From: Aliidongia dinghuensis
GTDB lineage: Bacteria; Pseudomonadota; Alphaproteobacteria; ATCC43930; CGMCC-115725
Assembly: GCF_014643535.1 (NCBI RefSeq)
Contig: NZ_BMJQ01000023.1
Span: 1 to 64,000 of the forward strand
Reading direction: 5' to 3'
DNA length: 64,000 bases
Below the pieces are notes generated by a model that saw nothing but the letters and a program-made list of their open reading frames with translations, was not told the DNA's origin and did not search any database. The translations under genes were made by a program, and so were the position numbers. Of this stretch, positions 54,735 through 55,897 are shown in pieces; the stretch's first letter is position 1, and every line of letters begins with the position of its first letter.

Positions 54735-55829
54735 TCAGTTCGCGTATTCGGCGCGGATCTGCTGGCGCAGCAGGTCGATCGGCATCAGCTGGCCGGCCTG
54801 CTCATAGTACCAGAAGGTCCAGCCGTTGCAGGACGGCGCGCCCTGGACCTCGGCGCCGACCTGATGGATCGAACCCTTGCCGTTCGCCCAGATGAGCGTG
54901 CCGTCGGGGCGCACGCGTGCGGCCCAGCGCCGGCTCTGATCGACCAGCACGGTGCCGGGCGGGATCATGCCGCGCTCGACGAGCGTGCCGAAGGGCACGC
55001 GCGGCTCGCTGCGCTTCGACTGGATCGTCAGGTCCTCGGCCGGCACGGGCAGCACGGCGGCGATGCGCTCGCGCGCGAGCCGCGCATAAGTCTCGTCCCG
55101 CTCGAGCCCGATGAAGCGGCGGCCTAGGCGTTTCGCGACAGCGCCGGTCGTGCCGGTGCCGAAGAACGGGTCGACGACCAGGTCGCCGGGCTTGGTGGAT
55201 GCCAGCAGCACGCGATGCAGGAGCGCCTCGGGCTTCTGGGTCGGATGCGCCTTGCGCCCGTCGAGCTTCAAGCGCTCCGGGCCGCCGCACAGCGGGATCA
55301 GCCAATCGCTGCGCATCTGAAGGTCCTCGTTCAGGCCCTTCATGGTTTCGTAGTTGAAGGTGTAGCGCGCGTCCTTGTCCTTGGCGCACCACAGCATGGT
55401 CTCGTGCGCGTTGGTGAAGCGCTTGCCGCGGAAGTTCGGCATCGGGTTGGTCTTGCGCCACACGATGTCGTTCAGGATCCACAGGCCCAGGTCCTGCACG
55501 ATCGCGCCGACCCGATAGATATTGTGGTACGAGCCGATGACCCAGAAGCTGCCGGTCGGCTTCAGGATGCGCTTCGCCGCCGCAATCCAGTCGCGCGTGA
55601 AGCGATCATAAGTCGCGAAATCGTCGAACTTGTCCCACTCGTCGTCGACGCCGTCGACGACCGAGTTGTTCGGGCGCCGCAGATCGTTGTTGAGCTGCAG
55701 GTTGTAGGGCGGGTCGGCGAACACGAGGTCGACCGAATTCGCCGGCATGGCGCGCATCAGCGCGGTCGAGTCGCCGACCAGCACCGAATCGACTTCGAGC
55801 GTGTGAATCCTGGACATGCGCTGCACCAT
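54735..55829 (-). CDS. ccrM: DNA adenine-N6 methyltransferase CcrM (GANTC)
   Basis: 364 aa. Class beta amino-methyltransferase: catalytic motif [34 protein letters not shown] (in part), AdoMet motif [42 protein letters not shown] and the C-terminal CcrM domain [20 protein letters not shown] and [22 protein letters not shown]. It methylates GANTC and times the cell cycle in Alphaproteobacteria. The start could be 55829 or 55817; a frame to 55853 exists. Eight GANTC sites crowd its 5' end and promoter region. Confidence 0.95.
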
Positions 55830-55897
55830 GAATCCCGCCGAGTCGCGCGTCAATGGGCTGTGATTCCCCGACGATTCGAAATTTCTGCGGGTGAGTC
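55768..55897. promoter_or_regulatory. Cluster of eight GANTC sites at the ccrM 5' end
   Basis: GANTC sites begin at 55768, 55786, 55805, 55830, 55840, 55862, 55873 and 55893. Three are in the first codons of ccrM and five around or upstream of its start. At this GC content about one site per 300 bp would be expected, so the density is roughly 20-fold. In Caulobacter methylation of GANTC sites in the ccrM promoter/leader regulates ccrM. Confidence 0.7.

Follow-up and report, generated by a model that had tools for sequence, protein, structure and literature searches.

A conserved array of GANTC sites in the predicted promoter of the alphaproteobacterial methyltransferase gene ccrM

Introduction

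The ccrM gene of Aliidongia dinghuensis starts within a dense cluster of GANTC, the target of the CcrM methyltransferase, and most of the alphaproteobacterial ccrM loci that we compared carry such sites just upstream of the gene. This is a real and strongly conserved regulatory array, whose sites, as read from aligned upstream regions, recur at set distances from the elements of a conserved sigma70-type promoter (TTGAC / CAnnnT). We lean towards reading the cluster as a ccrM promoter that senses methylation: it would be repressed by full methylation and would pulse after replication. Methylation-controlled promoters are a known kind of device; here the promoter would be the methyltransferase's own. 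The control of CcrM has so far been understood mainly from Caulobacter, via CtrA and hemimethylation, and in a literature search that was thin in subscription journals we found no published description of the conserved ccrM promoter layout.

The ccrM gene and its GANTC cluster in A. dinghuensis

We looked at a stretch of 64,000 nucleotides of A. dinghuensis DNA, hereafter the window. To judge from its domains, one ORF on the minus strand encodes CcrM: a methylase domain (PF01555, residues 29-249, 226.9 bits) is followed by a RAMA domain (PF18755, residues 264-357, 64.8 bits), both above cut-off and in the order found in the CcrM orphan adenine methyltransferase. The best PDB match of the protein was CcrM itself (6pbd, E 4.5e-154, residues 10-356). 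The NCBIfam equivalog NF050803 (CcrM, Caulobacter type) was the best match and covered nearly the full length, with 611.7 bits, below its cut-off of 830, so that the protein falls outside this narrow equivalog. We infer from this homology and from the avoidance of GANTC that the window CcrM methylates GANTC. The near neighbours that we examined encode an ABC transporter, an acyl-CoA synthetase and a protein weakly matching an acetyltransferase; the acyl-CoA synthetase gene, divergent from ccrM, is its upstream neighbour, in the place of rnhB. Within it, a 15-bp unit is repeated three times in tandem and in frame (window 56420-56464, GHFED three times).

The start of ccrM is probably ATG 55817, which matches the ATG of a congener in alignment (G001, locus L002; 92% identical). 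TTG 55853, where the ORF finder puts the start, was rejected, as ATG 55817 fits the congener and 55853 begins a TTGAC -35 box. The earlier note on this DNA had placed eight GANTC sites around the ccrM start, and a direct count found every one of them at exactly the position given, within 55768-55897 (Table 1). With the start at ATG 55817, five of them should lie upstream and three in frame, the latter number being the one that the note had given.

Table 1. Features of the ccrM region, with positions in the window; offsets of GANTC sites are counted in bp from the first T of TTGAC
Feature	Position	Strand	Offset	Evidence
ccrM coding sequence, 360 aa	54735..55817	-		Probable start ATG 55817; domain matches, PDB match, congener alignment
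-35 element TTGAC, including the TTG 'start' of the ORF finder	55849..55853	-		TTGAC upstream in 157/175 loci
Predicted -10 element CATGGT	55825..55830	-		C, A and T prevail at positions 1, 2 and 6 of the hexamer (156 loci)
Predicted transcription start at ATG 55817 (leaderless mRNA)	55817..55818	-		In-frame ATG spacing in 52/156 loci
Upstream GANTC	55893..55897	-	-44	Direct count; position kept in congener
Upstream GANTC	55873..55877	-	-24	Direct count; position kept in congener
Upstream GANTC	55862..55866	-	-13	GANTC at -21 to -13 in 110/156 loci; kept in congener
Spacer GANTC	55840..55844	-	+9	GANTC at +7 to +10 in 120/156 loci
GANTC abutting -10	55830..55834	-	+19	Exactly +19 in 92/156 loci, +20 in 3
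In-frame GANTC, R-I-H codons	55805..55809	-	+44	Absent from congener L002
In-frame GANTC, D-S codons	55786..55790	-	+63	Kept in congener L002
In-frame GANTC, D-S codons	55768..55772	-	+81	Kept in congener L002

The cluster stands in DNA that is poor in GANTC. The whole window holds 72 sites against 295 expected (sd 15.5, 100 dinucleotide shuffles), and the background is therefore one of GANTC avoidance. Our genome sample, 864 kb or about 12% of the genome, joined the window to 40 stretches of 20 kb each; it held 1031 sites, or 1.19 per kb. When 130-bp stretches, each starting at a GANTC site, were scanned for density, the ccrM cluster was the densest of the sample and the next-densest stretch had 4 sites; the Poisson chance of 7 more sites at most 130 bp from a given one is about 4e-10.

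A second, small cluster was seen in the window, with 3 GANTC in 36 bp (59209-59244) where two divergent ORFs start, one with weak glycosyltransferase-type matches (57632-59227, minus strand) and the other encoding a MarR-like regulator (59277-59720, plus strand). An unmethylated GANTC upstream of a MarR-family regulator is among those listed for Alphaproteobacteria in a methylome survey (PMC4752239).

Conservation of the array across Alphaproteobacteria

Of 61 relatives, 52 had a CcrM protein match at E 0.001 (44 of them at E 1e-60 or better); in the class as a whole, 292 of 389 genomes had one at E 1e-60. From sources that included 80 named loci and 60 further stretches, we assembled 193 ccrM loci, of which 175 were usable; the 18 others were dropped (14 without a strict anchor, 3 with short upstream DNA and 1 duplicate). 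This set leans towards close relatives of the window CcrM. GANTC was counted in a 250-bp upstream region, from -300 to -50 relative to the DPPY codon. We observed a mean of 3.82 sites per region; at the density of the remaining DNA of these loci, 0.39 would be expected. Numbers per locus ranged from 0 to 10: 138 loci had three or more sites, 20 had two, 12 had one and 5 had none. The 14 loci without a strict anchor, when read with a looser one, gave eight with three or more sites and two with none. Base composition, or the freedom of intergenic DNA, was rejected as the cause, as the same regions held 601 GANTC and only 42-128 copies of each of seven control motifs made of the same letters.

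To spread the sampling over families, we used a second set of 121 class loci (31 from the best-scoring matches, then 60 and 30 hand-picked at one to few per family, the last 30 from lower-scoring matches), of which 1 was dropped. Three or more sites were present in 83 of the 120 usable loci and fewer than three in 37; the 81 class loci that had been gathered earlier represent 51 families, and in 43 of these at least one locus reached three. Within the family of the window, this number was reached by 16 of 19 anchored loci, and the family's other five loci held 6 (L006, short), 1, 0, 0 and 1 sites. The congener kept all five upstream sites in position and in their four fixed letters, the middle base being changed in three of the five, and it carries one additional GANTC. 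The earlier note had proposed a count in related genomes as a check; once made, this count found the sites kept far beyond chance and at fixed promoter positions.

From the ctrA promoter and from gene position, it has been suggested that in Rhodobacterales methylation linked to replication may be of little importance (PMC8116508). Our counts bear on this suggestion: among 39 loci taken by their titles as Rhodobacterales, 35 had two to four upstream GANTC and 29 had a pair of sites 10-12 bp apart.

We also considered whether the cluster hitch-hikes with rnhB, the usual neighbour: an RNase HII motif lies upstream in 152 of the 171 loci with enough upstream DNA, and one such ORF was read. This was rejected: 16 of the 19 loci without the motif have three or more sites, and the cluster therefore follows ccrM, not rnhB. 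A broader alternative is that the sites gather for another purpose, such as replication timing, nucleoid or repair marking, or CcrM loading, the promoter merely offering free intergenic room. In its favour are reports that GANTC becomes more frequent close to replication origins (PMC9836097) and that Rhodobacterales have their ccrM in the neighbourhood of the origin (PMC8116508). Against it, the density of sites peaks at 36.6 per kb between -200 and -175, in a peak about 150 bp wide that is anchored to the ccrM promoter, and the sites are phased to the -35 element, so that we hold this explanation to be improbable.

The three in-frame sites were a different matter. The earlier note had thought that codon choice might have been selected for them, and our counts did not support this. 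In the 25 codons before DPPY, the 175 loci have 65 GANTC against 44 expected by synonymous shuffling, a ratio of 1.48 that is within the range of the seven same-letter control motifs (0.52 to 1.85), so that the N-terminal excess is no greater than theirs. Moreover, at the common -67 site Ile is encoded by ATT in 25 of the 43 cases that would permit a GANTC and in 16 of the 37 that would not; ATT is therefore raised in both groups. These two comparisons leave codon selection for in-frame GANTC without support.

Two loci exceed the window: in roughly 150 bp upstream of the DPPY codon, L108 (Micavibrio sp. UBA7657) has ten GANTC and L118 (an alphaproteobacterial MAG) has nine. Two others, L061 and L085, are titled Mycobacterium sp. 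KBS0706 and Solirubrobacteraceae and have a ccrM of alphaproteobacterial type with the cluster; they are probably mislabelled or contaminated.

Layout of the ccrM promoter

Upstream of ccrM in the 175 loci, TTGAC occurs 206 times against 30 expected by shuffling. We examined the geometry in the 156 of these loci with an upstream TTGAC that is not part of TTGACTC, using the copy nearest the gene. In 134 of the 156, a GANTC fell within the spacer or between +18 and +20, and sites at +7 to +10 and at +19 occurred together in 78. Of the 110 loci with a site upstream of the -35 element, at -21 to -13, 51 have it at -15. Three further positions are still more constant: offset 23 is C in 88% of loci, 24 is A in 87% and 28 is T in 90%. 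These shares are well above that of GANTC at +19, which points to a -10 element of the form CAnnnT in its own right. This element sits 17 bp beyond the -35 hexamer, and the final C of the +19 GANTC is its first base.

Beyond promoter elements and GANTC, the logo of the promoter contained a tract rich in A and, between -24 and -22, a weak TAA; nothing else was prominent. This bears on an alternative in which CcrM, or another methylation-sensitive protein, binds the array as an operator and represses ccrM by a route other than polymerase contacts. Such a device has parallels, as the modification enzymes of some restriction systems are described as occupying an operator in their own promoter (PMC3874152), and a site number that varies from 0 to 10 is what a titration array might look like. 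The lack of a further prominent motif in the logo speaks against it, however, and the fixed +8 and +19 positions are easier to reconcile with a role tied to the polymerase than with a loose operator; we regard it as quite unlikely.

In 52 of the 156 loci, 35-37 nt separate TTGAC from an open in-frame ATG, which places this ATG where transcription would be expected to begin; in the window the distance is 36. In the window genome the transcription start thus probably coincides with ATG 55817, giving a leaderless mRNA. A consensus promoter scan of the window called no promoter at ccrM, which counts against the promoter model; the predicted -10 element (CATGGT) is weak, and we attribute the missing call to this. 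The double pattern of TTGAC, a GANTC at +7 to +10 and a second GANTC 4-7 bp further on was found at ccrM only in the 864-kb sample. A near match (L264:6752), with GANTC at +6 and +19 from TTGAC, lies within the 3' end of an ORF resembling a chemotaxis receptor, and the arrangement can therefore arise by chance.

GcrA and CtrA as possible readers of the sites

GcrA binds methylated GANTC and recruits the sigma70 RNA polymerase, and in another reading of the array ccrM transcription would depend positively on methylation through GcrA. Part of the Caulobacter evidence agrees with this: mutation of GANTC is described as crippling several GcrA target promoters (PMC3667746), and a GANTC between -35 and -10 as the mark of one promoter timing class (PMC4287350). 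The window genome brings both partners together, GANTC in the promoter and a GcrA with 113 bits to PF07750. This GcrA (L224:1309-1671, minus strand, G000 contig C1) is short, 121 aa as aligned, and is without most of the linker of nine other aligned GcrA proteins. Upstream of gcrA genes, we counted 0 to 5 GANTC in the 29 of 32 GcrA loci that could be placed; the placing motif missed L215, L224 and L225, the last two being the window genome's own gcrA.

Set against this reading, the array persists where GcrA does not. By hand comparison of two match lists, 43 genomes had CcrM and no GcrA match. When 34 of them, including the 20 GcrA-less genomes of the family-spread set, were searched again with a profile of 10 GcrA sequences, none gave an E below 0.09 and two were at about 0.09; both control genomes matched. 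In the family-spread set, three or more GANTC were present in 14 of 20 loci without GcrA and in 69 of 100 with it, so that no dependence of the cluster on GcrA was found across these genomes. The 16 loci without GcrA averaged 4.6 sites, and the 65 loci with it 3.9 (p 0.18). On a FastTree tree, GcrA changed 15 times and the cluster 21 times, with a median p of 1; this test is low in power, since the supported branches carry no more than 6 independent changes of GcrA. That the cluster is equally common without GcrA argues that GcrA is not needed for it, and weakens the case for GcrA as a necessary reader. We consider the GcrA-dependent reading unlikely, although GcrA could be the main reader where it is present, the window genome included. 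The 34 genomes searched again, with CcrM and no detectable GcrA, are rated at least 95% complete, e.g., G094 (one contig) and G166; CcrM and GcrA are not strictly co-conserved.

As for CtrA, the strict site TTAA-N7-TTAA was absent from the 300 bp upstream of the window ccrM and was present in 1 of 81 class loci. A looser CtrA pattern matched in 2 of 43 further loci.

A candidate methylation-sensing promoter

The earlier note had proposed that methylation state feeds back on ccrM, and conserved sites at fixed promoter positions support this well, if indirectly. We favour direct repression by full methylation on several grounds taken together: the sites at polymerase contacts, the persistence of the cluster without GcrA, and the precedents of gcrA and of Caulobacter. 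The device would work as follows. CcrM target sites lie in the spacer, on the first base of -10 and upstream of the -35 element of a sigma70-type promoter. When these are fully methylated, methyl groups next to or in the contacts of RNA polymerase would lower initiation. Passage of the replication fork would leave the sites hemimethylated, the promoter would open and CcrM would be made, in the window genome probably from a leaderless mRNA. Remethylation would then close the promoter again, in a negative feedback tying the supply of CcrM to the amount of unmethylated GANTC. Neither CtrA nor GcrA would be required, and GcrA may modulate the promoter where present. We infer the sign of the effect (repression), its direct route through RNA polymerase, the pulse after replication and translation from a leaderless mRNA.

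A promoter carrying a methylated site is already known from CfrBI, a restriction-modification system in which methylation at the enzyme's own site is reportedly involved in the control of its genes. CfrBI has one site and is a mobile restriction system, whereas here up to ten sites lie upstream of what is presumably a housekeeping orphan methyltransferase.

Among alphaproteobacterial promoters, the closest parallel is the ccrM promoter of Caulobacter crescentus, where transcription is linked to the methylation state of GANTC in the gene's own promoter. According to published descriptions, only hemimethylated DNA is transcribed at this gene (PMC2217572), and methylation 'most probably' controls it directly (PMC3973325), so that the Caulobacter precedent invoked in the earlier note is broadly right. 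The activator is CtrA there, whereas here we found TTGAC/CAnnnT with fixed GANTC and hardly any strict CtrA site. In Agrobacterium tumefaciens, the gcrA promoter has 6 GANTC in 250 bp and is reported to be less active when methylated, an effect also described in E. coli, without alphaproteobacterial regulators (PMC11514494); this is another gene, not the methyltransferase itself. In the GcrA promoters of Caulobacter (mipZ, podJ and the hemimethylated ctrA P1), GANTC in or near -35/-10 is described as affecting activity or timing (PMC3667746, PMC4287350), whereas at ccrM the layout is kept even in genomes where no GcrA was detected. GANTC had been counted in cell-cycle promoters by Brilli 2010, with no conclusion on control in the part concerned (PMC2877005). 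Finally, ccrM is absent from the clusters of unmethylated GANTC in the relevant passages of the methylome survey (PMC4752239). This speaks against sites that stay unmethylated throughout, though it leaves room for a transient unmethylated state.

More tentatively, in much of the Alphaproteobacteria ccrM may run from a self-contained methylation homeostat, in which methylation of the -10 edge, the spacer and the upstream region acts directly on the sigma70 polymerase with no need of CtrA or GcrA. If so, the CtrA-wired ccrM of Caulobacter would be a derived arrangement and not the default of the class. The layout offers a simple route for matching methylation capacity to replication, and a clean system in which to ask whether bacterial RNA polymerase responds directly to adenine methylation.

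Apparent losses and replacements

Some groups seem to have lost the sites, namely g5 (in the window's family), Loktanella (L096 and L123), family f30 and four loci of f75. No GANTC was found in the 250 bp upstream, despite the presence of CcrM, in L096 and L123, in L025 and L027 (g5), and in L293 and L294 (f30); the two f30 genomes are also without a GcrA match. Such loci are natural losses, useful to set against the promoter model. In family f53, one to three GANTC and CtrA-like repeats were seen by eye, as expected of a Caulobacter-like group, and its ccrM looks CtrA-controlled. Taken together, the loss groups and f53 argue that the GANTC device is dispensable or replaceable.

Loss of the gene itself across a whole genus is possible in g11, also of the window's family: none of its seven genomes (G011, G019, G024, G029, G031, G033 and G035) had a strong CcrM match, all giving either no match or an E no better than 1e-10, and some of them are rated over 90% complete. 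Conversely, two ccrM-like genes are present in the small genome G115.
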